IMG/VR virus record: IMGVR_UViG_3300013126_000139
Location: 1-32,001 of that record
Source of the DNA: a virus
Reading direction: 5' to 3' (one strand)
Length of the DNA stretch: 32,001 nt
A program made the position numbers and the translations under genes. Shown piece after piece: positions 528 through 19,844 of the stretch; positions within the stretch are counted from its first letter, which is position 1; the number at the start of each line of letters is the position of its first letter. The notes beneath the pieces were generated by a model. That model searched no databases. It had not been told where the DNA came from and saw nothing but the letters and a program-made list of their open reading frames with translations.

Positions 528-1589
528 ATGCCACTCAATGAAAATATAGATTATGTCGATTGCTACGACTGTGGTGAAACCATGGATGCAGACGACATGT
601 ACACAAACGAATACGACGACAACTTGCGTTGTTGTGATTGCCACGCTGACTACGAGCATGCTTGTGAGCGTGAGCAAGAAGAAGAAGAATATGTGAACGA
701 CAGTCCAATCAACTGTTATTCACACAAGCCTTCTCCAATCTTCCTCAACGACGACGGTCACAAGTCGTACTATGCAACCGTCATTGACCAAGAAACATCA
801 TTGAACCGTACACAGTTGTACATGGGCTTTGAGTTGGAATTGGAGGCAAGCGGTCGTGTCAGTCGTAATGACTGTGCAGAGTTTGTACTCAACACAATCA
901 ACACGACAAGCGAAGACATTGTGTATCTCAAGGAAGATGGTTCACTTGACCATGGCTTTGAGATTGTTTCACACCCAATGACATTGGGCTTTGCAATGGA
1001 ACACTTTGCATGGGACGGTATCTCTGGTCTCATCAAGAAAGGTTGCAAGTCGTGGGACACAGGCACTTGTGGTCTGCACATTCACTTGTCACGCTCAGCG
1101 TTCAAAGATGAGAAGCACTTGTTCAAGTTCTTCAAGTTGATACTTGACAACGCTAGTGATGTGAAGCGTTTCGCTGGTCGTGATAGCCAGCGTTGGGCTA
1201 ACTTTGACAAGGGTTACTTCCTCAATTCATGGAATGATTATGATGTTGATGGCAACTATGTCACTCGCACATCATCTTCGTTGATGAAGTTTGCCAAGAA
1301 CGAAGAGCGTAACAACGAGCGTTACTGTGCTGTCAATTTGCAGAACCGTCACACCGTTGAGTTGCGTTTCTTCAAGCCTTCACTCAACCCCAAGACTGTG
1401 CAGTCTGCATTGCAGTTCTGTGATGCAGTCTTCACCTACACCGAGACAGAGTGTGACACTCAGCGTGTTATGTCTGGCAACGCTTTGGCGTTCCGTTCAT
1501 TCCGTTCTTGGGTCAAGACCCAAGAGCGTTATTCCATTCTGTCTGACCGTATCGCTGAGCGTTGCTCATCTCACGGCGACGATAACTGA
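528..1589 (+). CDS. amidoligase (phage COOH-NH2 ligase family) with N-terminal zinc ribbon
   Basis: Residues from about 97 on match the phage amidoligase family (glutamine-synthetase-like fold): GFELELE (100-106), KEDGSL (135-140), EIVSHP (145-150), CGLHIHLS (181-188) and, near the C terminus, AVNLQN and TVELRFFKPSLN. Family members are predicted to use ATP to form an amide bond between a carboxyl group and an amine; acidic and His residues in these motifs would bind metal and ATP. The N terminus carries C12-x2-C15 and C35/C36-x2-C38, a zinc-ribbon-like module, followed by a Glu-rich linker. ATG 528 is preferred over in-frame codons back to 423 because those lie inside the leader hairpin, and AAAGGG precedes 528. 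The next gene encodes a glutamine amidotransferase that could supply ammonia. The target (peptidoglycan, protein or metabolite) is not known. Confidence 0.85.
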   Translation: MPLNENIDYVDCYDCGETMDADDMYTNEYDDNLRCCDCHADYEHACEREQEEEEYVNDSPINCYSHKPSPIFLNDDGHKSYYATVIDQETSLNRTQLYMGFELELEASGRVSRNDCAEFVLNTINTTSEDIVYLKEDGSLDHGFEIVSHPMTLGFAMEHFAWDGISGLIKKGCKSWDTGTCGLHIHLSRSAFKDEKHLFKFFKLILDNASDVKRFAGRDSQRWANFDKGYFLNSWNDYDVDGNYVTRTSSSLMKFAKNEERNNERYCAVNLQNRHTVELRFFKPSLNPKTVQSALQFCDAVFTYTETECDTQRVMSGNALAFRSFRSWVKTQERYSILSDRIAERCSSHGDDN

Positions 1590-1606
1590 TACTGCGATAT
1601 CAGTTT
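1584..1606. repeat. dyad repeat copy 2, overlapping the amidoligase stop codon
   Basis: AACTGATA (1584-1591) and TATCAGTT (1598-1605) form an 8-bp stem around CTGCGA. The stop codon TGA of the amidoligase gene is embedded in the left arm. The half-site and loop start match the copies at 401-424 and 5052-5077. Only about 40 bases of A/C-rich leader separate it from the next start codon, so a role between these two genes (terminator, operator or mRNA processing) is plausible but unproven. Confidence 0.7.
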
Positions 1607-1645
1607 CCAAACACACACAAACAACAAACAAGAAAGGAACACAAT

Positions 1646-2659
1646 ATGTGTTTACTAACATTCATTCCTGATTATGTCTCACCAGACATGGACAGGTTCA
1701 GAGTTGCAGCCAAAGCCAACCCAGATGGTTTTGGTTTCGCAATATCAACTGGCAAAAAAATCATCACATGCCACAGCATGGACTTTGATGAAGTTGCAAA
1801 CAAGTTCATTGACTTGCGACCAACACACAACGGTCCTGCTGTGTTTCACTTCCGTTGGGCAACTCACGGTAGCGAGACAGTCAGCAACTGTCACCCATTC
1901 TTCTTGGGCAAAGATAGTCAGTCTGTTGTTGGTCACAACGGCATTCTGCCTGTTGCAATTCCTAAGGGTGATGTGCGTTCAGATACCAAAATCTTTGCGC
2001 AAGACATCATGCCATCTGTCGGTGGCATTGTGTCTCTTGATGATGATGAGTACTTCAAGAAACTCGAAGCATGGGCTAAGGGTTCTAAGTTGGTATTCCT
2101 CACTACTCACGAAGATGCAAAGCAAGACTGGTACATACTCAATGAGAAGTCTGGTCATTGGGATAAAGATATGTGGTGGTCTAACTACTCATACGAGCAG
2201 TTCACCTACACCTCTTACACCAAGCCAAGTACTGGCAGTCTTTGGGGTTACGACGACGACTGGGATTACAGTTACGGTCGCACTTCGTATGTATCATCAT
2301 GGGACAAGAACGACAAGGGTCTAATCATTCCTGATTACGACGACGAACTTGAGTATCTTGCAGAAGAACAAATGGGACAGTTTGATGTGTTCACTACACA
2401 CATTGACGACAACACACAACTCATTGAGTGCTACAACTGTGCTCACGCACACAAGACACCATCTGGTGTAATGGAAACTCATTGTGATGAGTGTGGTGCT
2501 TGCCACTTCTGTGGTGCAGACTACCCTTGCGCATGTTGGTCAGCCATCTATCAGGTCTACGACCTTGATGGCTTCAATGATGACATTTACGCTGCAAATG
2601 CAGTAGTTGTTCCAGCCAATCCACAATCACAATCAACCACACACCCAAGTTATTACTAG
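1646..2659 (+). CDS. class II glutamine amidotransferase with Cys-rich C-terminal domain
   Basis: The protein begins Met-Cys, so removal of Met would expose Cys2 as the N-terminal nucleophile typical of Ntn-type glutamine amidotransferases, which release ammonia from glutamine. Supporting motifs are NPDGFGF (25-31), FRWATHG (69-75), NCHPF (81-85), GHNG (96-99) and SDTKIF (112-117), the usual order for this family. The Ntn domain takes up about 170 residues. A Tyr/Asp/Trp-rich linker and a C-terminal Cys-rich segment follow (CYNC, then CDECGACHFC and CAC), probably zinc-binding. The leader has AAGGAAC before ATG 1646. It lies directly after the amidoligase gene, and comparative genomics has linked such pairs in phages; the pair would ligate ammonia or an amine to an unknown carboxylate. 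Confidence 0.87.
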   Translation: MCLLTFIPDYVSPDMDRFRVAAKANPDGFGFAISTGKKIITCHSMDFDEVANKFIDLRPTHNGPAVFHFRWATHGSETVSNCHPFFLGKDSQSVVGHNGILPVAIPKGDVRSDTKIFAQDIMPSVGGIVSLDDDEYFKKLEAWAKGSKLVFLTTHEDAKQDWYILNEKSGHWDKDMWWSNYSYEQFTYTSYTKPSTGSLWGYDDDWDYSYGRTSYVSSWDKNDKGLIIPDYDDELEYLAEEQMGQFDVFTTHIDDNTQLIECYNCAHAHKTPSGVMETHCDECGACHFCGADYPCACWSAIYQVYDLDGFNDDIYAANAVVVPANPQSQSTTHPSYY

Positions 2660-2669
2660 GAGGTAATAA
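2650..2669 (+). promoter_or_regulatory. hairpin presenting the AGGAG ribosome binding site in its loop
   Basis: TTATTAC (2650-2656) and GTAATAA (2663-2669) are perfect 7-bp arms around TAGGAG, so the Shine-Dalgarno core lies in the loop and overlaps the stop codon of the amidotransferase (TAG 2657-2659). The right arm runs into the ATG at 2669. The stem is AT-rich and weak, so it may modulate rather than block translation of the small gene downstream. Confidence 0.5.
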
Positions 2670-2830
2670 TGACACCACAAGAAATGCGTGCTCACTACTA
2701 TGTTGCTCTGTTTCAGAGAAACTTTGCAAAGCACAACATTCGTCTGACTGAGGTCACGCTTGATGACCTCATTCCAGATGCGCTCAAGAAAGAAACAAAC
2801 AAACAAACAAAAACAGGAGATAACAAATGA
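2669..2830 (+). CDS. small hypothetical protein, 53 aa
   Basis: ATG 2669 follows a strong AGGAGG at a good distance, and the frame ends at TGA 2828-2830, overlapping the next ATG (ATGA). The first 40 residues look like a short helical domain (MRAHYYVALFQRNFAKHNI) and the tail is hydrophilic (ETNKQTKTGDNK). The tail codons coincide with a CAAACAAACAAAC tract that doubles as the leader of the next gene, so the C-terminal sequence may be shaped by the need for an unstructured leader. No known domain is recognised. It sits in the amidoligase/amidotransferase operon. Confidence 0.65.
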   Translation: MTPQEMRAHYYVALFQRNFAKHNIRLTEVTLDDLIPDALKKETNKQTKTGDNK

Positions 2831-2958
2831 ATTGCAAGAAATGCAATGACGAGTTATACACACTTCACGAAATGGATGAGTATCAAATGTGTGATGCTTG
2901 TTATTGTGAAGTATTTGACCCAACAAACAAACAAACAGAAACAGAGGAAGCAAAATGA
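2827..2958 (+). CDS. standalone zinc-ribbon mini-protein, 43 aa
   Basis: The ORF uses ATGA overlaps at both ends. It encodes C3-x2-C6 and C22-x2-C25 plus C27, a minimal zinc ribbon, with an acidic tail. The pattern and spacing resemble the N-terminal Cys module of the amidoligase two genes upstream: CxxC, an acidic/aromatic stretch including a D/NEY step, then CxxC. This could be a detached copy of that module acting as an adaptor or partner, but simple convergence of short ribbons is possible. The tail again carries the TNKQT repeat-coded segment seen in the preceding gene. Confidence 0.65.
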   Translation: MNCKKCNDELYTLHEMDEYQMCDACYCEVFDPTNKQTETEEAK

Positions 2959-3115: not shown

Positions 3116-3637
3116 ATGACAACAATCAAACTAATCCCATCAGTAATGGAATTTGATGTAGCACTTGACAGCGCATCAATGCCATCACTATTCAGTCAAT
3201 CACTAGAGACAACAATCATTGAGGAGGTAGAGCGACATGTAAACGGTCGCATACCAACTCATGAATCAGTTGTTCAGTCTGTTGCAGAGACAATGATGGA
3301 GAGCCGGGACTACACACGCAAGGTGCGTAACTGGGTTCTTGAAAGCATTGACTACTCTCAAATTTCTAGAGAAGTTAGTGACAGCATTGACTTCTCTGAA
3401 CTTGTAGACCTATCAGCACCATTGTGGGAGAACGAAAGTTTCTTTCGCCATCTACTCAGCAACAGTCGTTTCAGGAACATGGTGTCACAGCAGGTGACTG
3501 CAAGCATTGACAACAACACAATCAAAAACATGGTTGAAGACAAAGTTGAGTCAATGACTTCCAATCTGTCTAACGAGATTGCAGAGAAAGTGCTCAAGGT
3601 TATTCAGAACCGATTGACATTGGGTTCAGATGTTTGA
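3116..3637 (+). CDS. hypothetical helical protein, 173 aa
   Basis: This protein is predicted to be almost all helical, with many Ser, Glu and Asn residues and no cysteines. It carries loosely repeated short elements in the middle (ESIDYSQI and DSIDFSELVD), and later TASIDNNTI, spaced roughly 20-45 residues apart. The repeats may reflect an amphipathic or oligomerising helix array. It has no membrane segment and no domain I recognise. Its stop overlaps the start of the WhiB-like gene by 8 bases, so the two are probably translated together. Function is unknown. Confidence 0.7.
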   Translation: MTTIKLIPSVMEFDVALDSASMPSLFSQSLETTIIEEVERHVNGRIPTHESVVQSVAETMMESRDYTRKVRNWVLESIDYSQISREVSDSIDFSELVDLSAPLWENESFFRHLLSNSRFRNMVSQQVTASIDNNTIKNMVEDKVESMTSNLSNEIAEKVLKVIQNRLTLGSDV

Positions 3638-3881
3638 GCCTGTGGCTGTAGACTTTACGAAAGCAAATTGTAAAGACCAGCCCACGATTTGGTGGTTTCC
3701 AGAATGGCCACCAACAAGAGAAAAAACAAGGCAATGGAAGCAAGCAAAAGCAATCTGCTCTGAATGCGATATGAAGAAAGAATGTTTGGCTTACGGTCAA
3801 TCAACTTATTCATATGGCATTTGGGGTGGTGTCACATTACAAAACGGAAGAATCGACAAAAGAAAGAAGGAACAGAAATGA
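3630..3881 (+). CDS. whiB-like: WhiB-like iron-sulfur transcription regulator
   Basis: Four cysteines (C14, C43, C46 and C52) have the WhiB arrangement Cys-x28-Cys-x2-Cys-x5-Cys that binds a 4Fe-4S cluster. The hallmark turn GIWGG follows at 63-67, and a basic tail (KRKKEQK) could contact DNA. At 83 residues it is a normal size for a phage WhiB. WhiB proteins are confined to Actinobacteria and their phages, where they bind sigma region 4 and alter promoter choice, so this gene is the best host marker in the window. It overlaps the preceding gene by 8 bases and the next by 4. It may switch host or phage promoters during infection; a role in superinfection control is possible. Confidence 0.9.
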   Translation: MFEPVAVDFTKANCKDQPTIWWFPEWPPTREKTRQWKQAKAICSECDMKKECLAYGQSTYSYGIWGGVTLQNGRIDKRKKEQK

Positions 3882-4632: not shown

Positions 4633-5052
4633 TTGATAGCAAAAATAGCAATATCAATCTCAGTAATTGTGGGGGGCTTTGTGCCCCCCGCTTCTTTTAT
4701 CAAGCACGACATTCCAGAACCAGTAGATGTTTCTGCATCTGCTCGCTGTCCTCAATGGTGGCAAACTGCCGTTGATGCAGGCTGGCGTGAGTCGCTACTA
4801 CCGACATTGGATTATCTGATGTGGCGTGAAAGCAGGTGTGACCCTACTCAGCACAACACAGACGACCCAAATGGGGGTTCTAGGGGCTTGGTGCAGGTCA
4901 ATGGCTTCTGGACACCGTGGCTGGCTTCTAGAGGCATTGTGAAGCGTTCTGAGGGGCTATTTGGTCCTTACCGCAACCTGAGGTCAGCCCTTGCTATTTA
5001 CAACTACGCAGACGCTCGATACGGCAACGGTTTCGGTCCGTGGGGTCTGTAA
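4633..5052 (+). CDS. secreted lysozyme/transglycosylase-like (SLT fold) protein
   Basis: TTG 4633 is chosen because AGGGGG at 4621-4626 sits six bases upstream and no other start precedes the domain. Residues 1-22 form a signal-like stretch: a Lys, then a hydrophobic run up to Pro-Pro-Ala-Ser. The rest resembles the transglycosylase/lysozyme fold, with WRES containing the likely catalytic Glu66, the GGSRGLVQVN step, and a C-terminal LRSALAIYNYADARYG helix ending in GFGPWGL. At 139 residues it is a minimal version. It would cut peptidoglycan glycan strands outside the membrane. Because it lies with early-side genes, far from the M15 endolysin, a role in modifying the cell wall during infection is as likely as lysis. 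A GC-rich hairpin overlaps the signal-peptide codons. Confidence 0.8.
   Translation: MIAKIAISISVIVGGFVPPASFIKHDIPEPVDVSASARCPQWWQTAVDAGWRESLLPTLDYLMWRESRCDPTQHNTDDPNGGSRGLVQVNGFWTPWLASRGIVKRSEGLFGPYRNLRSALAIYNYADARYGNGFGPWGL
4671..4689 (+). terminator. terminator-like GC hairpin inside the lysozyme signal-peptide codons
   Basis: GGGGGGC (4671-4677) and GCCCCCC (4683-4689) make a perfect 7-bp all-GC stem around TTTGT, followed by GCTTCTTTTAT. This resembles an intrinsic terminator, but it lies 40 bases inside the coding region of a protein with a good downstream domain. It may act as an attenuator, slow translation to help secretion, or reduce expression. The U-run is interrupted, so termination may be partial. 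Confidence 0.5.
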
Positions 5053-5077
5053 AAACTGATACTGCAATATCAGTTTT
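5052..5077. repeat. dyad repeat copy 3, at the lysozyme-like gene stop
   Basis: AAAACTGATA (5052-5061) and TATCAGTTTT (5068-5077) form perfect 10-bp arms around CTGCAA. The A-rich start and T-rich end give this copy the look of a bidirectional terminator more than the other two copies. It begins at the last base of the lysozyme-like stop codon and closes the first part of the plus-strand arm. Confidence 0.75.
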
Positions 5078-6536: not shown

Positions 6537-7561
6537 TGCGATTATCAGCAGAAGAAATCTCTGCTGGCTGGGAGAATGTGGGGCGACAGACACCTGTCGC
6601 CTCACTCTCCGAGTATCGAATGTACACACCACTTTCAGAAGCAGCGGACTCATTTGTTCGCTGGGCACAATCTCCACAAGAGCGTGTACATCTAGGTATC
6701 AGTCGCATTGATAAAGAACTACGAGGCATTGCACCGGGCGAAATTGCCATGATGTTGGGATTTGCACACGGCGGTAAGACACTCTTACTGCTTCACGCAC
6801 TTCGCAACAACCGTGACAAACACATTGCAATGTTCATACCTGACGAGCCACGCCAACTCGTATTGACCAAACTCACCTGTATGCATCATGGAATTGATGC
6901 ACGAGAACTGGAAGCACGAGTAGCATCAGATGACCAAGAAGCCATTGAATTGCTACGCCGAACAGCAGAGGAAGATTTTCCAAACCTCGCTGTGTTTGAC
7001 CAGCCACTAACAAGTTCCGACATGGAACGTGCTTACGGTGAAGTTTGTGATGTGTGGGGCAGAGTTCCTGAACTGGTTGTGGTTGATTACCTAGACCTAG
7101 TTGAAGCAGGTGAAACCGTTCCCGACAAAGCAACCTTCCTAAAAGGCTTTGGTCGTCGTCATGATGTTCCGATTCTTGTGTTGCACCAAACATCACGCCA
7201 TGCTGGCGCTGATGGTGCGAAACTCACAATGTCTTCGGGTTCATTCGGTGGAGAACAGCAAGCAACATCAATCATTGGTGTTCGTCGCAAGAAGTACCAG
7301 ATTGCGCATGAGATGAATGAACTGATTGAGAAACTTGACCGTTCACATTCAGAGCGAGCACAAGACAGACTCGAATTCCTACGCCATGAGCAGAGAGTTC
7401 ATGAACATACTGTGACCGTAAGTTTGTTGAAGAACAAACGACCAGCAGGTCAGTTGGTAGACGACATTGACTTTGAGTTAGACCCAGCAACTGGTCGTCT
7501 TCGTGAACTAGACGGAGAACTTCCTGCTCAGTATTTGCAGATGGGAATGGTTTATGACTGA
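6536..7561 (+). CDS. DnaB/RecA-like replicative helicase ATPase
   Basis: The RecA-type core is clear: Walker A GFAHGGKT (75-82), Walker B VVVDYLD with Asp184, a sensor-like HQTS (217-220), a glycine-rich GSFGGEQQ loop (235-242), and an NKRPAG segment (300-305) in the place of the arginine finger region of DnaB-type helicases. At 341 residues it is shorter than full DnaB because the N-terminal primase-interaction domain is absent or replaced by about 50 residues. It would use ATP to unwind DNA as a ring; a RecA-like recombinase is less likely given the order of motifs. It overlaps the next gene, a primase, by 8 bases, which fits a helicase-primase pair. Confidence 0.82.
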   Translation: MRLSAEEISAGWENVGRQTPVASLSEYRMYTPLSEAADSFVRWAQSPQERVHLGISRIDKELRGIAPGEIAMMLGFAHGGKTLLLLHALRNNRDKHIAMFIPDEPRQLVLTKLTCMHHGIDARELEARVASDDQEAIELLRRTAEEDFPNLAVFDQPLTSSDMERAYGEVCDVWGRVPELVVVDYLDLVEAGETVPDKATFLKGFGRRHDVPILVLHQTSRHAGADGAKLTMSSGSFGGEQQATSIIGVRRKKYQIAHEMNELIEKLDRSHSERAQDRLEFLRHEQRVHEHTVTVSLLKNKRPAGQLVDDIDFELDPATGRLRELDGELPAQYLQMGMVYD

Positions 7562-8453
7562 CCTAGAGATGTTTCACTCTCTGTTTCAGGGTCGCACAGA
7601 TGCATACGGCACATGGGAAGGTGGCTCTGTTCGTTCAGCAGTCACCATTGAAACATTTGCTAATCACATCAATGGTAAAGAACTAATTGGTATCTACCCA
7701 CTCTCGCTTGGCAACACAGTCAAGTGGGGCTGTTCAGATATTGATGTTGATGACATTGACTCTGCACGAAACCTACAAACAGCACTCAAGGTGAAAGGTA
7801 TACCATCATTCGTTGAGAAAACCCGTAAGGGTTTTCATGTGTGGGTGTTTGCTAACGACTGGGTATCGGGTGCAATCATGCGTAGAGCATTTTTGTCTGC
7901 ACATGAAGCAATCGGTTTGCCAGCACGAGAAGTAAACCCCAAGCAAGAGGAAACAACAGGGCTTGGTAACTACGTTCGTTTGCCGTATCCAAACGGTCTG
8001 AATGTAATACCAGAGAACCGTTATGTTCTCTTTGAAGAGTCTGATGAGTCGGCTATGACATTGCATCAGTTCCTGATTACAGCAATGGACATGAGAGTGC
8101 CAGCAAACAAGTTGTTGCCACTAGCAGAAATGCACAGACCACGAAACAAAGCGCATCTCGAATCGCTTGATGTTTCAACATCTGTACAAGAAGCACTTGA
8201 CCATGTTGATGCATATGTCGCAACCATCTGGAGGAATGGTCCTCTACCCGGAAGCGACAGGTCAAACACGCTTGTGCGAATGGTTCACTACATGCACAAC
8301 AAGGCAGTACCAATGAACTTTGCATATGTCATACTTGTTGATGCAGACAAAAGATGGGGCAAGTTCCATCTCCGTCATGATGTAGTAGAGCAATTAACCA
8401 AGATAGTTGAAGATGTGTACTCAACAGAAGTAACAGGAGTGTTTAGACCATGA
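7554..8453 (+). CDS. archaeo-eukaryotic-type primase (TOTE-like AEP)
   Basis: Motifs in order match the AEP primase-polymerase superfamily, and most closely the TOTE-type primases: LIGIYPL (44-50), the catalytic D62-I-D64, GIPSFVEKTRKGFHVWVF (82-99) with the nucleotide-binding His95, EVNPKQE (126-132) and LGNYVRLPYP (137-146). The C-terminal third is helical and lacks a recognised domain. AEP primases make RNA or DNA primers and some extend DNA. At 299 residues this is a single-domain form, unlike TOTE proteins where the primase is fused to a helicase and a nuclease; here a helicase gene lies directly before it and a resolvase after it. It starts at ATG 7554, overlapping the helicase end by 8 bases. 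Confidence 0.8.
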   Translation: MTDLEMFHSLFQGRTDAYGTWEGGSVRSAVTIETFANHINGKELIGIYPLSLGNTVKWGCSDIDVDDIDSARNLQTALKVKGIPSFVEKTRKGFHVWVFANDWVSGAIMRRAFLSAHEAIGLPAREVNPKQEETTGLGNYVRLPYPNGLNVIPENRYVLFEESDESAMTLHQFLITAMDMRVPANKLLPLAEMHRPRNKAHLESLDVSTSVQEALDHVDAYVATIWRNGPLPGSDRSNTLVRMVHYMHNKAVPMNFAYVILVDADKRWGKFHLRHDVVEQLTKIVEDVYSTEVTGVFRP

Positions 8454-10873: not shown

Positions 10874-11773
10874 TTATTTCTTGTTGTTCTTATTGTTGAA
10901 ACCCAATACTGGTTTTGCTGCAACAAATGGTGCTATCGCCGTTCCAGCAGTAGCACCACCAACGACAGCACCTCTTCCTACTGATTTAACTTTTTCAAGT
11001 GATTGTTGTTTGGAAATAAACTTTGCTAATTCATTTTTTAATTTATCATTAAGTACATTTCCTTCTTGAAATGAATTAATAGTTTTTGAACCAATAACTT
11101 TTTGAGATGGTGTCATTCTTGCATTAAGCGAACCGGGAAAACCTATAGCACCATTTTCATACATATCTAAAAAATACTGATGCTCTGGGTCTAATAAACC
11201 TTTAGCGCTTTTTGTTATGTAAATATTTTTATTACCCATTGGATTTAATTTAACGTTTGGAAGATAATTTTCAACTGAATCAAGTAATTCATTTGGGTTT
11301 AATTTTTGATTATATGCATTTGTTGAAGACAATTTATATGTTTGTCCTTCAATCAATGGAAAACCGGGAATTTCTCCAGCACCTTTATTTGCATTTATAT
11401 TTGGCAATATATTTTCTAAATCGTCAAATGGAGATATGTGAACGCCGATATCTCTAGGCTTAATCCACTGCTTTAGCGCTTGAAGTTTTGGAGAAACATA
11501 TTCAGCACCTCTAGCAAGTCCAGAACCAACGCCTGCACCAGCAAGCATTAATGCGGCATTTAATGCAATCTGACGAGACAATGCATCTGGTCCACGCAAA
11601 GCGGCTTGACCCATGCCACCACCAATATATGTATCAGCAAGACGACCAGTATTCTTGATAACTCCTTTAGCGCTATTAAGTGCTGGTGATGTAGTTGGGT
11701 TGTCCTTCTGCCAGAAGGCAACCTGATTAGCAAGTGTGTTTAACAGTTCGTTGAAATCCATATTATTCGCCAA
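10874..11773 (-). CDS. putative virion-associated protein, 299 aa
   Basis: The N-terminal 100 residues are Ala/Gly/Leu-rich with a possible membrane-active helix (IALNAALMLAGAGVGSGL), like internal virion proteins. The centre changes style, becoming Asn/Lys/Ile-rich (NILPNINANKGAG, NKNIYITKSAKG). The C-terminal part again holds a Gly/Ala/Val-rich hydrophobic segment (GAVVGGATAGTAIAPFVAA). No cysteine is present. The central DNA (about 10980-11430) is clearly more AT-rich than its neighbours, suggesting an inserted or exchanged domain. VHISPFDDLENI recalls the start of some phage ADP-ribosyltransferase-like modules, but I could not find the other motifs, so this is only a hint. The gene overlaps the giant gene upstream by 11 bases and probably works with it in the virion. 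Confidence 0.7.
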   Translation of the reverse strand: MANNMDFNELLNTLANQVAFWQKDNPTTSPALNSAKGVIKNTGRLADTYIGGGMGQAALRGPDALSRQIALNAALMLAGAGVGSGLARGAEYVSPKLQALKQWIKPRDIGVHISPFDDLENILPNINANKGAGEIPGFPLIEGQTYKLSSTNAYNQKLNPNELLDSVENYLPNVKLNPMGNKNIYITKSAKGLLDPEHQYFLDMYENGAIGFPGSLNARMTPSQKVIGSKTINSFQEGNVLNDKLKNELAKFISKQQSLEKVKSVGRGAVVGGATAGTAIAPFVAAKPVLGFNNKNNKK

Positions 11774-14700
11774 ATGCTTTTTCTCGTGATGCTATTTTTG
11801 CTATCTCGCCTTTTCTTCGTGCAAGTTCTGACTGAATTTCCTGTTCCTTCAATTGACGACCCGGAACGCCTAGGAATCCGAGTAGCGGATTCACATAACC
11901 ACGTTGCTGGTATGTATCAATTGATGGTGTCAGTCGTTCAGCAGTTCCTAAGAATGGAATCAAGTTGCGAACCGCATAATATGCTTTGTCGTTCACAAAC
12001 TGTTTTCCATCTCGTGTCTCTCCGTAACCAGCAGCAGCCAAGAATGGTTGCAGGACTGCGCCTGCACCATTACCAACTTGTACTGGCTTATCAGAGAACT
12101 GACGATTGTTATAAAGTTGTCTTCCACCCATAAGTTCAATTGGAACTCGTAGCAATGGGTTTACGTTTGACAACAAACGCTGTGGGTCTGCCAACTCTTG
12201 AATCTGTTGCCCAACACGGTTGAATCCAAAGTCTGGTGTTGCATACAAGTTGTTTCCAAATGGCAACTTGAATGCACCAATCTCACGCATCCATTGTGGA
12301 ACAACATCACCTTCTTTATCTGAACGAACATTTCGTTTGATGGTGTTATAGATTGCATAAGCACGTGGGTTCAACCACATGTTACCAATTTGCAATGGAA
12401 GGTTTCGAGAAGTCCACATCCAGAACGGAACAATCTGACGCATAACTTGGTCAGCAGTTGAAACATCTGCGTAGTCAATTAGATACTTGCGAACACGAGT
12501 TGCTGCAGCATCAAAGTCCATTCCTTTTGATACACCGTCCCAAGCCAATACGAAACGTGAATGGTTTTCCACCCATCTACCAAGTTCCTTTGAACGCTTA
12601 GTTCCCTTTGGAAGACGACCAAGGTCAAAGAAGTCACTAGACATACCACCACCAGAAGCCATAAACGCATCCATTGCAGTCTTTGCTTTTGTCTGCATTG
12701 CTTGCGGTAGTTCTTTAATCCACTCATCAACATTGAGTCCACGCTTAGAAGCATTCAACCAAGACCTGCTCATCTCCAAGCCTTCGTTCATATACTTCAA
12801 TTCTCCACCTGCTGCGAAAATCATGAATGCGTTAGACATGGCGTTGCGAGCATGAAAGCCAGGCGAAAGCGTTGCATACGCTTTGAAGAACTTGGTGTAC
12901 TTGCTTGTAAATCTTCCAAACTCACGAACAATCTGTGGCTCGTTGAATCTGTGAACGGACTTAACAATTGATTCGAGTTCTTTCTTTACGCCAATATTTG
13001 GGAAGTATTTACTGAGTTGTACAAAGCCTTCGTCAAACATTGGAACAATGCTGTATGCCTCTTCAGGAACACGACCACGCAAAGCAATTGGCATCTTTGA
13101 GCCAAGGTTTGCCGTGTACTCCATTCCCTTCAATCCATCAGCAAACAATTTCTCAACCTTGGCATCATCAAGGCGTTGAACCTGTTTGAAGTATTCAGCC
13201 TTCTTTGAAGCAAAGTCTGTGACCGCAGCACGAATGTGGTTTGGTAGTTCATCACCGTCAATTGAATTGAGAAGCGTAGACGCTTCCTCAATGAAATTAT
13301 CAACGTCAGACACCCATGCATCAGTTCCAGCCTTGACAGTCTTCTTGACCTTAGTTCCCTTCATCGCCATATCTTTAAGGTCGCTCACAACCTTGCGGGC
13401 ATCTTCAAGAGCATCTGGTGCCCAAGTTGCATAGTTGACAGCACTATCGTAAGCAGCCTCTGCTTCACTCATTACCTTCTGTGCGTCTGTCAGAACCTGC
13501 CTAGACTTAGCAGCCTTACCACCAAGAGTTTTAGCACCAGTTTGAGTTTCAAGTTTTTGACCTGCCTTCATTGCTTGTTCCAACTCACGAGAAGTCTGCA
13601 ACTTTCTAGCAATAATAGAACGTTGCTCAGTTGTCATCTTGCTTAGCGCATCAAGAACTTCTTGTTGACGACCTTCAATCACAATCTTTCTAAGATTGAG
13701 ATTGATAACTTCTTCAGCAAGTGAATCTACTCGTGCTTTTTCTGCAGCAATCTCAAGTTGCTTAGGCGTAGTACCAGCCTCGATAGCACCACTATCTGGT
13801 CTGAAGTACTTACCATCAACACCAGCACCCTTGCTTAGTGGTAGTCCACCAAGTTGCTGTTCAATCTGTGCATCAGTAAGTAACTCACCCGGTATTGCCT
13901 CCGCTGGACGTGCACGAACATCTTCAGCACGACGGAGTGTTTCATCAGCAAGAGCCTGACCACCCTTGGCACGAGGCTTGATGTTTGCAGATTGCAACTC
14001 ATCAAGAATCTGAGCCTCAAGGTTTGCAATTTCATTGGCATTATCAACGCTATTGCCCCTGAGTTGTGAGACCTTCATTCTAATTCTGTCTTGGAAGTTG
14101 ACAATGTTAGAACGCTCGTTAGCCCATTGCTGTTGCATCTTTACGCTGAGTCTTCCCTCAGTCTCTTTATAATTACGCATGAACTTATATTCGTCACTAT
14201 TGAGACGAATTTTCTGCAAGTAATTGGTTCGTGCTTTTACATCTTCTTCAAGAGCCTTTACACCATACTTATCAACAAGTTGTTGTAATGCATCTTCTGG
14301 AAGCAATGGCTGTGGACCATTAGGACCAGTCTTAAACTTGAATGCAAATGAAACACCAGCCTCTTGCTGTCTAGCAAAGTCTGCAAAGTTGTCATGTATT
14401 ACAGTCAACTTTTCAAGCGCAGAACGTGAAGACCTGTACTCAAGAACTTGCTTCTCAACATCAAGCAAAAGGTCTTCAACCTTTTGTAACTGACCATCAA
14501 TAGCGGTTGTATCTGCACGCTTTACCAACAAGTTTTTTCTTGTAGAACGAAGACGAGCATGTGTCTTTTCAAGAGTGTTCAACTGTGATTCGAGTCTGTT
14601 GATTTCAATTGGCTTTAATGGGTCATTCCATAAAGCATTGAACTCTGCTGGAGTAAATCCAATCTGTTCTGCTGTTGCCTCATCAAACTTGGCAAGAACA

Positions 14701-17700
14701 TTCAAGAACCTGTGTTCGCTTTCACGACGAGCAGCACGAGCATATTCTGGTGTTGAAGCCAACTCATCAAGTTGAGCCTGAATCAATTCATTATCAACCT
14801 GCTCACGAACAACTGAGCGCATGGACTTACCCTGAGCAGGTATCTCCATAACAACATCTTCGTTCAACTTGGCTGTGAACGGACGTGTGGTTGGCTTTGG
14901 TGGACCAATCTCTGGAACAGCACCCTCAAGGCGCAATAACTCACGCTGAGATGCTTTCTCAGCCGTGTTAATTTCTTTTCTGAGACCAATACGCCTATTC
15001 AATTCATTGGCATACTCTTCTAGGAAGTCAGCAAGGGAGTTTGCGCCACGCAACTCCTTGCGCATGAGCCATGCACCCGGGATGTATTTACCGTCAATTG
15101 AACGACCCTCAACACCCTGAAGCAGTTTGTCTAATGGAAGACTTGTCTCTTCGGTAAGAACACGAAGTCCTTTAATACGATTAGCGTTCCTTTCGTAAAT
15201 CAAACCAAAGTAAGAGTCACCAGCATTGATGGTTCGATACTGTCTTGCAGCACGAGTACCTGAGTACTCGTACAAATCTCCACCAAGCAATTCAGCAAAC
15301 AATTGAGTTACATGCTTATCGCTACCATTCAAGGCAGAATCAATGATTCCAGAGTATCCAAACTCTTTACCATTTCTAATTGCTCTGTTAATTACCTTGT
15401 TGATTTCTTTCATTGAACCTTTACCAGTTAGACGCTTACCAGCCTCCAATGCAATCTTTTGGTCTTGTTCAATTTCGGTCATAATCTTTGCATAAAGTTT
15501 TTCAAGTTCATCAATCTTTTGTCTTACTGGATTGATTTTTTTTGCAACATATGGAACTTCTATTTGCTTTAATCTTGCAATTGATTCTTGAATGTTTCCA
15601 CGAAGTTTGTCATACTGACCGGCAGAACTAACTGACGATAGTCTAAAGCCACTCAAATCTTCAGTTTGATTAAACCCACGCATATCAACACTACGTGCAC
15701 GACGAGTTAATGGTCTACCCCATACTGGATTTTCCCCACGCTCACGAAGAAGTTTAAGAACTTCTTCTTCAAGATATATTGCTTGTGGGTGTCGATAAAA
15801 AACACGGTTGACTTCTGCAAGTTTGTCCTGCATGAGAACTGATTCAAGTTCTGGAAGATGCTTACGAATGAGTTCCTGAATGCGTAATGCATCAGTAATC
15901 TCTTTCTTCTGGAAACCTTTACCAACTTTTTGTACACGGAAAATCTTTGCCAGTTCTTCACGCAAAGTAATTGAACGTGTTATGTCCTGTGAACGTGTTG
16001 TTTGCCTCTGGAGAATTTCTTCCTTTCGTGGACCCCACTCACCAGCCTTCTCAGTAATCTTTTTCCCAGTTGGCTTATACGTTTTACCCTGCATTGTATT
16101 TCTTGGGTCAAAACCTTTTTTATCAGAAAAAGTAGATGCAAGTTTGTTGTATTCTTCTTGAATTACTGATGCTTCTGGTTTTACTTCACCAGAATTAAGT
16201 TGGACTAATTTCTTATTCCAAAGTTTATTAAACTCTTCGTTTAATGAACCACTAACTTCAACCATTTGTGGATAGACAACTTCTTCTTCAAGTAAACTTT
16301 GACGAATAGCCTCAACCTGTTGTTTGGTTGGCTTTCTATCCGGGATAGATTCGACACGCTTACGAACATTTGTAAAGAAATCTTGTAGTTCAATCAAACC
16401 ATTCTGATGCTCAATAGTTGCTTTAAGTTCTGGTCTAGCAACATTGGAGAGAATTTTGTTATAGTTCTGTTGGTCAACAACACGACCAACATGTGTCATT
16501 GCATCTTGCAATGAACGCAATTGGTTATACGACTCACGGTGTAGGTAATACTCTGATATGCCAGCACCAAGGTCAGCAACAACTTCACGGAAACCATTTA
16601 TCTTGTTTGCATTCTCAATAGCACCACGAGCATATTCATTCTGACCTTTTGTAAGGTTCTTCAACCTTTTTTCATATTCAGCAATCTTTTTGTTTTGTTC
16701 AGCAATCTTCTCTGTAATCAATTCCTCTGGAACAATTCCAGCGTATACACCATTTTCCATACCAGCATCAAGTGCTTCTAGCATGTCGTCTCTAAGTACG
16801 GTTGCGTTGTAAATATTGTCATTTATTTTCGCAACAGACCTAGCCAACCGTCCTTCGGTATCACGGAACATAAATGTTTCTGTTGCATCAGCCTGACGAA
16901 GCAACTCAACAAGGTTTGAATAACGTGAACGAGTAGCACCCTGCATTGCACCAGCACCACGAATGTCATTAGCCAAAGCAGTAGCAAACTCTGGGTCATT
17001 CATTGCGTCACGAACAATCAGCCATACTCCAGCCTCACGCAGTTCCTTGAGGCTCGCACCACTTGCACCTGATGTGACCGCATTGGCAACACGAGACTTA
17101 ACATCTTCAATAGTCAAACGTGACAAAGCAGCGTTTGAGATGCTTCCAGTTGGGTCAATCGTTGACTTAATCACCTGCATATCAGTACCAATAATTCTTT
17201 CATTGGTCCACAAAGGACCAATGTTCTTTGGAGTCATTGGTTTGTAACCCTGAATATGAATATCTTCTTCAGCCAAAGCATGAACAATGTTGTCCCAAAT
17301 ATCATCAGACTCAATAACTTTAAGGTGTCCACCAGCAATACCATTAAGCACATTGTCAAGTCTGGTTATTTTTGCAAATTGGTCTTCTGCTTCTTTCAAT
17401 GCTTCAGCAGCACGTTGACCTTTCAAATCAAGACTTGCAATTGCACTATCAATGCTTCTCATTTTTCCGTCAAGCATTACCATTGCTTGACCTGCAGGTT
17501 GGTCAAGAGTTACACCCAATTCAGAAATAATCTTTGGATGGTTCATCACCATCTCATCAAGTGATTTTGTCAGGTCATTCCAAGCAACATCAAGGTCATC
17601 AAGAACAGACTGAAGCATGTCAACAACAGCAGTATTTTCTGCACGTGCGTTCACAAACTTAAACCATGCTTGCTTCTGTTTTTCTGCAGCACGAGCAACT

Positions 17701-19844
17701 AGTTGTTGTGCAGCCTCAAGTTTCTTGAGCATTTCTTCTGGAGTGCCAACTTCTTTCAATCCTTTTGTGAGAGCCTGCACTTCTTCTTTTGCAAATCCAC
17801 CCTCTTTAGTGAGAACAGTCATGTAGTCTTTCAATGCAGTAATTGCAGCACTACCACTTTGGCGCATCTCTGAGTGCGCCACCTTCATGGCTTGTTCAAC
17901 TCTCTTGGCATAAGCAGCGGTTTCTTTCAACCACTCTTTAGAGACAGTACCCATCTGCTTTGCTTCTGCAAGAATGCCACCCTCAACTGCAAGACGCATA
18001 AACTCTGCAGTACCAAACTGCTGTGCATAATGCTGACCATACTTGGTCATAATCTTGTCAAGGTCTGTCTCAAAGAACTTACCAGCAAAACCATCAGTTG
18101 CCTGATTAGCAATCTGATTCAATCTTTCAACACCACCAAGAACATCATCTTTGGTCAATTCTTTTCCAAAGAAGTTTGCACCCTCAATCAAACCACGTGA
18201 CTTAAACGAAGAAGCAGGGTCAGTCATGTTTAACTTCAAGTACTGACGAATCTCTTCAGCACGAGCAGTAGTCAAACTATTCAACCAGTCACGAGCCTCA
18301 TCAGTCATCATGTGAGGCAAGTAGTTTTCCTGTGCGTTCAATGTGAACGCCTTATCAACCAACTGGTACTTTGCTTCTACTTCTGTATGGAAGTCTTTGA
18401 ATATCTGCTTGACCTTGTTGTATGCAACCTCTTCAGTTGGTGTCATCTCACGTGCCCAGTTAAGGGTGATTCCATCAGCCTTGAACTTTGGTGTGTCCAA
18501 GAACTTATAAAGTTCTGGACCAGCAGCCTTAATATCTGCCTGCTCCAAGAATGGTGCAACACGCTTTGCATATGCATCCATCATGATGTTTTCTAATGCA
18601 CGAGCAGAATTATCCATTGTCTCCATGCGTACTGCATAACGTGCAAGTTCAGCATCCATTCTCTGCAACTTTCCATCAACAACAAGTTTGCCAGTACGCA
18701 AACCACGACGAAGTGGTTGCATATTACGAGCAGCAGAAGTTCCCTTGGTTGTAAAGTTTTCAGCAAGCCACTCACCACCACGACTACCAGCAACAGCAAT
18801 TCGAGAACGAACAATTCCACGCTCAAGCATTTCCGCAATCGGACCTGTGAACGGAACTTTTACTTTAGTTCCAACAACATAAAGACCACTCTCTGGTAAG
18901 CCAATACGTTTCGCTAAAGCAATACCTTCTTCAGTTCTTCCCAATGCGGTACGACCACGCAACGCAATGTCTTGTACGAGTTCAGCAGATGCACCCATGC
19001 CATCTGCAAGTTTTGCAAGATTGGTTGCAAAGCCACGACCACTCTGTCTACTACCAAGAAGTTTTGCAAGTTTGACACCCTCTTGACTTGCAGCACTACG
19101 AGCAACTTCTTCTGCAGCCATTCTTGCAACAGCCTCTGGACCAAGAGCCGCAAGTTCTTCTGCGGCCATACCGGCACCACGCATCAATGCAGATTCACCT
19201 GCACGAAGTGCAAGGTTCTCTGGAATAGAAGCACCAAGTGTCAACCAGTTAATTGGGTCAAGAGCCAAGTCGCCAAACAAACCTAATGCACGACCCCAAT
19301 TGCCTTTAACTGGAAACGCTGTACCAAATCCATATGAAACATCTTTGGTCTGATTGAACCAGTCGGTAAGACTTGCTTTGGTATTTTTGTCATGGTCAAG
19401 AATGTCAACAACTTCACGAACAGTAGAGATAACTGCACGACGACCAGTATCAAGAACTTCTAGAGGCTTGAGTACTGTCTTGGCAATTGGATTATCAAGA
19501 ATGTGTGCAAGTACACCCAAAGCACCCGATGGCTTTACTTGACCTGCAGCAGCAGCCTGAATTTCATCAAGAACATTCGGATACTTCATTCCTTGTGAAC
19601 GTGCATAAGTGTTGAGACCTTGCTGTGCAGCACGGGTCTTCTGGCTCAATGGATTCAAAGGAACCGTATTTGCCTGCTTGACAATTGTGTCAAGAACATT
19701 GGGAGCACCACTCGCACCCATTCTGGGTGGCGAGGCGGTGCGTGTAGTAGGGGCTACAACAACTGGCTGTGGTGCTTTAGTTGCGTAAGCCTGTTGTGAT
19801 AAACCTTGGAGAGCAGAAAGTAAATCTTGCTGAGAAGCCATCAT
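11763..19844 (-). CDS. giant internal virion / ejection-type protein, 2693 aa
   Basis: This single frame takes up a quarter of the window. The first 60 residues are Pro/Ala/Gln-rich; a LDPINWLTLGAS element near residue 200 and Ala/Gly-rich helices follow. The middle 1500 residues are long charged helices with many coiled-coil-like stretches (KIAEQNKKIAEYEKRLKNL). The C-terminal 500 residues contain aromatic, membrane-like elements (RQIVPFWMWTSRNLPLQIG, VRNLIPFLGTAERL), as seen at the ends of large polyvalent phage proteins. I found no cysteine anywhere and no polymerase, protease or nuclease motif. Its place after the nozzle and ejection-type proteins suggests it is packed in the head and injected. 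It starts by ATGA overlap with the gene before it. Whether any segment is enzymatic remains open. Confidence 0.8.
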   Translation of the reverse strand: MMASQQDLLSALQGLSQQAYATKAPQPVVVAPTTRTASPPRMGASGAPNVLDTIVKQANTVPLNPLSQKTRAAQQGLNTYARSQGMKYPNVLDEIQAAAAGQVKPSGALGVLAHILDNPIAKTVLKPLEVLDTGRRAVISTVREVVDILDHDKNTKASLTDWFNQTKDVSYGFGTAFPVKGNWGRALGLFGDLALDPINWLTLGASIPENLALRAGESALMRGAGMAAEELAALGPEAVARMAAEEVARSAASQEGVKLAKLLGSRQSGRGFATNLAKLADGMGASAELVQDIALRGRTALGRTEEGIALAKRIGLPESGLYVVGTKVKVPFTGPIAEMLERGIVRSRIAVAGSRGGEWLAENFTTKGTSAARNMQPLRRGLRTGKLVVDGKLQRMDAELARYAVRMETMDNSARALENIMMDAYAKRVAPFLEQADIKAAGPELYKFLDTPKFKADGITLNWAREMTPTEEVAYNKVKQIFKDFHTEVEAKYQLVDKAFTLNAQENYLPHMMTDEARDWLNSLTTARAEEIRQYLKLNMTDPASSFKSRGLIEGANFFGKELTKDDVLGGVERLNQIANQATDGFAGKFFETDLDKIMTKYGQHYAQQFGTAEFMRLAVEGGILAEAKQMGTVSKEWLKETAAYAKRVEQAMKVAHSEMRQSGSAAITALKDYMTVLTKEGGFAKEEVQALTKGLKEVGTPEEMLKKLEAAQQLVARAAEKQKQAWFKFVNARAENTAVVDMLQSVLDDLDVAWNDLTKSLDEMVMNHPKIISELGVTLDQPAGQAMVMLDGKMRSIDSAIASLDLKGQRAAEALKEAEDQFAKITRLDNVLNGIAGGHLKVIESDDIWDNIVHALAEEDIHIQGYKPMTPKNIGPLWTNERIIGTDMQVIKSTIDPTGSISNAALSRLTIEDVKSRVANAVTSGASGASLKELREAGVWLIVRDAMNDPEFATALANDIRGAGAMQGATRSRYSNLVELLRQADATETFMFRDTEGRLARSVAKINDNIYNATVLRDDMLEALDAGMENGVYAGIVPEELITEKIAEQNKKIAEYEKRLKNLTKGQNEYARGAIENANKINGFREVVADLGAGISEYYLHRESYNQLRSLQDAMTHVGRVVDQQNYNKILSNVARPELKATIEHQNGLIELQDFFTNVRKRVESIPDRKPTKQQVEAIRQSLLEEEVVYPQMVEVSGSLNEEFNKLWNKKLVQLNSGEVKPEASVIQEEYNKLASTFSDKKGFDPRNTMQGKTYKPTGKKITEKAGEWGPRKEEILQRQTTRSQDITRSITLREELAKIFRVQKVGKGFQKKEITDALRIQELIRKHLPELESVLMQDKLAEVNRVFYRHPQAIYLEEEVLKLLRERGENPVWGRPLTRRARSVDMRGFNQTEDLSGFRLSSVSSAGQYDKLRGNIQESIARLKQIEVPYVAKKINPVRQKIDELEKLYAKIMTEIEQDQKIALEAGKRLTGKGSMKEINKVINRAIRNGKEFGYSGIIDSALNGSDKHVTQLFAELLGGDLYEYSGTRAARQYRTINAGDSYFGLIYERNANRIKGLRVLTEETSLPLDKLLQGVEGRSIDGKYIPGAWLMRKELRGANSLADFLEEYANELNRRIGLRKEINTAEKASQRELLRLEGAVPEIGPPKPTTRPFTAKLNEDVVMEIPAQGKSMRSVVREQVDNELIQAQLDELASTPEYARAARRESEHRFLNVLAKFDEATAEQIGFTPAEFNALWNDPLKPIEINRLESQLNTLEKTHARLRSTRKNLLVKRADTTAIDGQLQKVEDLLLDVEKQVLEYRSSRSALEKLTVIHDNFADFARQQEAGVSFAFKFKTGPNGPQPLLPEDALQQLVDKYGVKALEEDVKARTNYLQKIRLNSDEYKFMRNYKETEGRLSVKMQQQWANERSNIVNFQDRIRMKVSQLRGNSVDNANEIANLEAQILDELQSANIKPRAKGGQALADETLRRAEDVRARPAEAIPGELLTDAQIEQQLGGLPLSKGAGVDGKYFRPDSGAIEAGTTPKQLEIAAEKARVDSLAEEVINLNLRKIVIEGRQQEVLDALSKMTTEQRSIIARKLQTSRELEQAMKAGQKLETQTGAKTLGGKAAKSRQVLTDAQKVMSEAEAAYDSAVNYATWAPDALEDARKVVSDLKDMAMKGTKVKKTVKAGTDAWVSDVDNFIEEASTLLNSIDGDELPNHIRAAVTDFASKKAEYFKQVQRLDDAKVEKLFADGLKGMEYTANLGSKMPIALRGRVPEEAYSIVPMFDEGFVQLSKYFPNIGVKKELESIVKSVHRFNEPQIVREFGRFTSKYTKFFKAYATLSPGFHARNAMSNAFMIFAAGGELKYMNEGLEMSRSWLNASKRGLNVDEWIKELPQAMQTKAKTAMDAFMASGGGMSSDFFDLGRLPKGTKRSKELGRWVENHSRFVLAWDGVSKGMDFDAAATRVRKYLIDYADVSTADQVMRQIVPFWMWTSRNLPLQIGNMWLNPRAYAIYNTIKRNVRSDKEGDVVPQWMREIGAFKLPFGNNLYATPDFGFNRVGQQIQELADPQRLLSNVNPLLRVPIELMGGRQLYNNRQFSDKPVQVGNGAGAVLQPFLAAAGYGETRDGKQFVNDKAYYAVRNLIPFLGTAERLTPSIDTYQQRGYVNPLLGFLGVPGRQLKEQEIQSELARRKGEIAKIASREKAFGE

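Follow-up and report, generated by a model that had tools for sequence, protein, structure and literature searches.

Cysteine-rich, putative zinc modules conserved on a phage amidoligase and its adjoining class II glutamine amidotransferase

An amidoligase (AL) and a class II glutamine amidotransferase (GAT), encoded side by side in a phage genome fragment, are probably the two subunits of a glutamine-dependent amide-forming enzyme with appended zinc modules. The window, meaning the whole stretch of DNA that was analysed, is an entire IMG/VR record of 32001 bases with a G+C content of 44%. Cysteine-rich modules lie at the N terminus of AL and at the C terminus of GAT, and both are conserved across many related phages rather than peculiar to the window. 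A third Cys-rich product encoded nearby, a 43-aa protein, is unrelated, dispensable and no part of the enzyme pair. The features discussed below are collected in Table 1.

Table 1. Positions of the features discussed, in the window unless a related locus is named.
Feature	Position	Strand	Basis or remark
AL, 353 aa, COOH-NH2 ligase / glutamine-synthetase-like fold	528..1589	+	PF12224, AF2 model, Foldseek, invariant columns
AL N-terminal zinc module (predicted), residues 9-54	552..689	+	Cys conservation, AF2 secondary structure
GAT, class II glutamine amidotransferase, 337 aa, Ntn-hydrolase glutaminase, N-terminal nucleophile Cys2	1646..2659	+	profiles, motifs, fold
GAT C-terminal 8-Cys module, residues 262-297, C-x2-C-x14-C-x2-C-x2-C-x2-C-x5-C-x-C, two zinc ions predicted	2429..2536	+	invariant Cys
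53-aa gene after GAT, no family	2669..2830	+	in most close relatives, not in L002
43-aa Cys protein, CxxC-x15-CxxC, separate accessory gene	2827..2958	+	among close relatives, in L002 and the window only
WhiB-like Fe-S transcription factor	3630..3881	+	PF02467, E 1.6e-11; syntenic with the pair
Lysozyme-like / SLT-domain protein	4633..5052	+	SLT_3, E 1.7e-5, slightly under cutoff
AEP-TOTE (archaeo-eukaryotic) type primase	7554-8453		adjoins DnaB-like helicase gene
2693-aa protein	11763-19844	-	no Pfam match at E 0.01
Palindrome copies	401-424, 1583-1606, 5053-5076		
Second amidoligase of relatives	L007 4736-5542, L008 3134-3940, L010 4841-5491, L011 4732-5547, L074 3145-3957		

AL matches PF12224 (Amidoligase_2) at E 4e-7, with 30.6 bits against a cutoff of 22, and 44 of its 45 aligned relatives match the same family at E<=0.01. 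Residues of the G-x-E-x-E, DGS, E-I-V-S-H-P, G-L-H-I-H and E-L-R motifs are conserved, and those of catalytic type are invariant across the 45 relatives, most of which are ~32% identical. When the AF2 model of AL (pLDDT 86.9) was compared using Foldseek, YbdK (2.1e-5), Dop/PafA (~2e-4), GCL and GS were retrieved at probabilities of 0.99-1.00 with TM-scores of only 0.3-0.4, and because these scores are low the enzyme class is supported by families and motifs as much as by the fold. All eleven close IMG/VR loci (AL identity 77-85%) encode both AL and GAT and keep every Cys of the AL module; the eight Cys of GAT are likewise kept in all except one contig, which ends inside GAT.

Five of the relatives encode a second amidoligase of 216-271 aa, ~27-37% identical to AL and located ~0.3-0.5 kb upstream of it (the window's left end stops short of the matching place). 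Since this paralogue has neither a Cys module nor a GAT of its own, the AL core appears to be usable without either.

By motif and fold, GAT belongs to the class II glutaminases. The window protein carries Cys2, RWATHG and GHNG, while HxR, TxG, HNG and DT are invariant in the family; residue by residue, M1, C2, R70, T73, G75, H97, N98, G99, D113 and T114 are invariant in an alignment of 39 sequences. The match to GATase_4 (PF13230) falls slightly under the cutoff of 23 for the window protein itself (20.8 bits, E 2e-4), and at E<=0.01 GATase_4 is matched by 38 of the 39 family members and GATase_6 by 28. Additionally, GAT matches phrog_25883 at E 1.2e-36, and NCBIfam covers its GlmS glutaminase part only. 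The GAT model, in which residues 1-180 have a pLDDT mostly >90, matches the GlmS glutaminase domain (Foldseek, 6.9e-8). The adjacency of an amidoligase and a class II glutamine amidotransferase, as read in the initial annotation, is borne out by the AL profile and the GAT motifs, and the survey below extends it to related phages.

The AL N terminus contains C12, C15, C35, C36 and C38; across the 45 relatives C12 and C35 never vary, and conservation at C15 and C38 is at least 90%. In the AF2 model, in which zinc is not included, residues 9-54 form a CxxC knuckle, a beta hairpin and a second CxxC where a helix begins, with a pLDDT of 86-93 over residues 11-40. This is the layout of treble-clef and LIM-like domains, and the module is predicted with high confidence to be a treble-clef-like finger. 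The best solved relatives of the Cys array are LIM domains (PINCH1, E 4.5e-4), and one AL family member matches Pfam LIM at E 3.9e-7. The AL module has in common with LIM and treble-clef zinc fingers the spacing of the CxxC pairs and the predicted knuckle-hairpin-knuckle-helix order. However, the AL of the window has a single finger and most family members fall below the LIM model. The number of CxxC motifs in the module ranges from 1 to about 8 among relatives, the window clade having roughly one finger.

The C-terminal module of GAT is defined by C262, C265, C280, C283, C286, C289, C295 and C297, each invariant in the 39 sequences, a diverse set in which most members are ~37% identical to the window GAT. 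In this alignment the eight Cys are equal in invariance to C2, N98 and G99. The family-wide pattern, C-x2-C-x~14-C-x2-C-x2-C-x2-C-x~6-C-x-C, fits 63 of 69 GATs, and no Pfam family recurrently covered the module when the members of the 39-sequence alignment were scanned. The model of this region shows knuckles and no helix at moderate confidence (pLDDT ~75), so that its fold looks, with the same moderate confidence, unlike the treble-clef-like AL module. Together the conservation in 45 and 39 sequences places the Cys-rich modules at both termini far beyond chance. They had been noted as real features, which they are, and as unusual in this phage, which they are not.

The survey of this architecture drew on the best 80 of 444 confirmed IMG/VR relatives of one AL profile, using catalytic-core search patterns, on 80 further loci from a second, more distant AL profile, and on named phages. 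In total 149 non-identical ALs were scored, and the counts use the 141 with an uncut N-terminus and room for a neighbour. A module was called where at least two CxxC and at least four Cys lie within the 160 residues before the ExE motif. By this measure 127 of the 141 ALs carry the N-terminal module, a proportion that probably overstates the figure for PF12224 as a whole because the sample was ranked by similarity to Cys-rich queries; the remaining 14 lack it under a conservative threshold, some of them having one CxxC and 4-8 Cys. A GAT adjoins AL on the same strand in 126 of the 127 module-bearing cases, and 11 of the 14 module-less ALs also have an adjoining GAT. The LUZ24 AL, with 302 matching phage records, is without the Cys module.

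The two modules are distributed differently. Full-length GATs beside module-bearing ALs include 62 with a C-terminal Cys module and 56 without, and LUZ24-type phages present the reverse case, an AL lacking the N-terminal module next to a GAT with a CxxC tail. When 84 AL cores were placed on a tree, GAT modules of the 8-Cys type clustered in one supported clade (37 rows, SH-aLRT 98), whereas AL modules are spread across almost the entire tree; co-variation of the two across this tree comes down to 3 independent pairs only. Based on the survey counts and the tree, we conclude that the AL module is the older and wider of the two, that the GAT module is a trait at clade level and that neither requires the other. 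A profile match between the modules was obtained with hhalign (probability 42-64%), which scored above all 100 composition shuffles and above 99 of 100 shuffles with the Cys columns fixed. This likeness is suggestive only; the modules may be distantly homologous or may have converged on a pattern of LIM-like type. Thus the proposal of docking between like modules keeps a weak resemblance between AL and GAT, while it is weakened by the many pairs with one module and by the difference in predicted folds.

From family membership, the chemistry of the pair would run as follows. GAT would hydrolyse glutamine by means of its N-terminal Cys2, releasing ammonia, and AL would activate a carboxylate with ATP and join the ammonia to it, giving a carboxamide; formation of a complex and transfer of ammonia between the subunits would go with such a division of labour. 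The AL finger, in relatives often a LIM-like array, would be an appended zinc-binding module that most likely binds substrate or partner. The GAT module would be a clade-specific zinc domain that stabilises or attaches the glutaminase.

What the modules contribute is a matter on which several readings compete. The best placed of the rivals, though on balance less likely than not, is that they recognise a macromolecule which the pair amidates, either a protein of host or phage or a nucleic acid, with the number of fingers tuning target choice. LIM and treble-clef domains commonly bind protein or nucleic acid, the AL arrays vary in length as described, and Dop and PafA, enzymes that work on the side chains of proteins, are among the closest matches by fold; on the other hand, the fingers may be structural. 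A bolder and rather improbable extension is that a class of amidating enzymes guided by zinc fingers is widespread among phages. The LIM-like array of AL would select one particular macromolecule of the host, and a glutaminase bearing an uncatalogued 8-Cys zinc domain would supply glutamine nitrogen for amidating the carboxylates of that macromolecule, in the service of host takeover or immune evasion. Amidoligase/GATase pairs are common in phages, with at least 444 IMG/VR relatives of one query profile, and no substrate of such pairs is reported in the literature surveyed. The substrate question can be put to the test with the help of the conserved zinc modules, the ribbon-less paralogue that some relatives have by nature, and the Marvin-like mycobacteriophages, which share the architecture and can be cultured.

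It is doubtful that the pair instead amidates the stem-peptide carboxylates of peptidoglycan, or their precursors, and so alters the wall, for example against superinfection. Iyer 2009 is reportedly the founding amidoligase paper. Alteration of the cell wall (peptidoglycan) against superinfection has been proposed for the amidoligase/GATase cassettes of RIO-1, LUZ24 and phiEco32-like phages (PMC5498523), and PMC10580990 and PMC11318856 carry the same conjecture, citing Iyer 2009. In the Giles yeast two-hybrid paper, amidoligase and GATase domains are mentioned solely for prey proteins from the host and not for phage proteins. However, neither ATP-grasp, gamma-glutamyl cyclotransferase (GGCT) nor second COOH-NH2 ligase genes were found by phmmer or by a Pfam scan of 77 neighbour proteins within a few kb of the pair in window-clade loci (the window being cut at its left end), and AL and GAT look like cytoplasmic enzymes.

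The lysozyme-like gene nearby had been taken as a further hint of a peptidoglycan target. It belongs to a family that, together with a second lysozyme-like family, occupies a similar place in 44 of 79 loci. The WhiB gene is present in 46 of these loci, about 2-4.5 kb after AL, and a sigma-70-like protein family in 30, ~4.4 kb after AL; together these two regulatory families make up a block in synteny with AL and GAT. Because the lysozyme-like gene is syntenic together with the WhiB and sigma-factor genes, its nearness carries no special weight and the hint falls away.

An equally doubtful reading is that the Cys modules serve structure alone and contribute neither to docking nor to the choice of target. 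The AL array varies freely in length, the clade of the window having about a single finger, and the GAT module is missing in other clades that keep the pair, both as expected of structural elements, but within its clade the eight Cys of GAT match catalytic residues in invariance.

The 43-aa gene exists and is coding, with 9 synonymous against 2 non-synonymous codon differences in 34 codons relative to its homologue. That homologue, in L002, was the only one returned by an IMG/VR scan. The gene is absent from 9 of the 10 close relatives readable past GAT, all of which keep both enzymes and both modules. In L002 it lies directly 3' of GAT, where the 53-aa gene is missing, and it thus behaves as a mosaic small gene. 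The claimed resemblance to the AL module was not recovered (blastp E 1.3; hhalign probability 1.2%), and no homology to the GAT module was found; a common origin with the AL module was rejected, and the protein would play no part in the AL-GAT machine. That the three Cys modules are one shared docking module of a three-part complex is accordingly very improbable: all three are of CxxC type within 2.4 kb and the AL-GAT profile match exceeds Cys-spacing-preserving shuffles, but the 43-aa protein is neither retained nor related, and the two enzyme modules occur apart elsewhere and differ in predicted fold.

Besides the pair, the window encodes WhiB, a P22/SU10-like portal, a DnaB-like helicase and a sigma-70 region 4 protein, and it is a tailed-phage fragment, actinobacteriophage-like in character. 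WhiB is an actinobacterial family, and because of this gene an actinobacterial host is most likely. The 2693-aa protein takes up a quarter of the record and is possibly an internal virion or ejection protein, and a primase of AEP-TOTE type is also encoded. No defence families were matched by PADLOC. Copies of the palindrome AAACTGATACTGCGGTATCAGTTT lie in gaps that follow genes, and one of them overlaps the AL stop codon. The same palindrome is found in L001-L011 and L074, with 4-6 copies in close relatives. Nearly throughout, each genome has one variant of the arms, ACTGATA..TATCAGT or ACTGAGA..TCTCAGT, both arms being changed jointly (L003 is mixed), a pattern suggestive of an operator or RNA hairpin whose copies evolve in concert.

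As in the window, a PF12224-type AL lies beside a class II GATase in the amidoligase-GATase-ATP-grasp cassette of LUZ24, phiEco32 and RIO-1. That cassette has ATP-grasp, GGCT and COOH-NH2 ligase genes alongside, unlike the window-type pair, and the 510-aa GAT of LUZ24 has a different, shorter CxxC tail. The OM43 phages MEP401 and MEP402 resemble the window in an AL with a CxxC module N-terminal to the catalytic core and an adjoining GAT, but this GAT is without the C-terminal 8-Cys module and identity is ~26-29%. The same architecture is seen in the pair of the Marvin-like mycobacteriophages (e.g. JoieB gp113/gp114, annotated 'glutamine amidotransferase domain protein'). There AL is extended at its C terminus, which makes it longer, and has additional CxxC motifs, and the pair lies in other gene surroundings with no 43-aa gene; the adjoining AL and GAT are 33% and 40% identical to those of the window and share the N-terminal CxxC modules of AL and the 8-Cys C-terminal pattern of GAT. 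The pair of the window is a zinc-finger-bearing variant of a known phage cassette.
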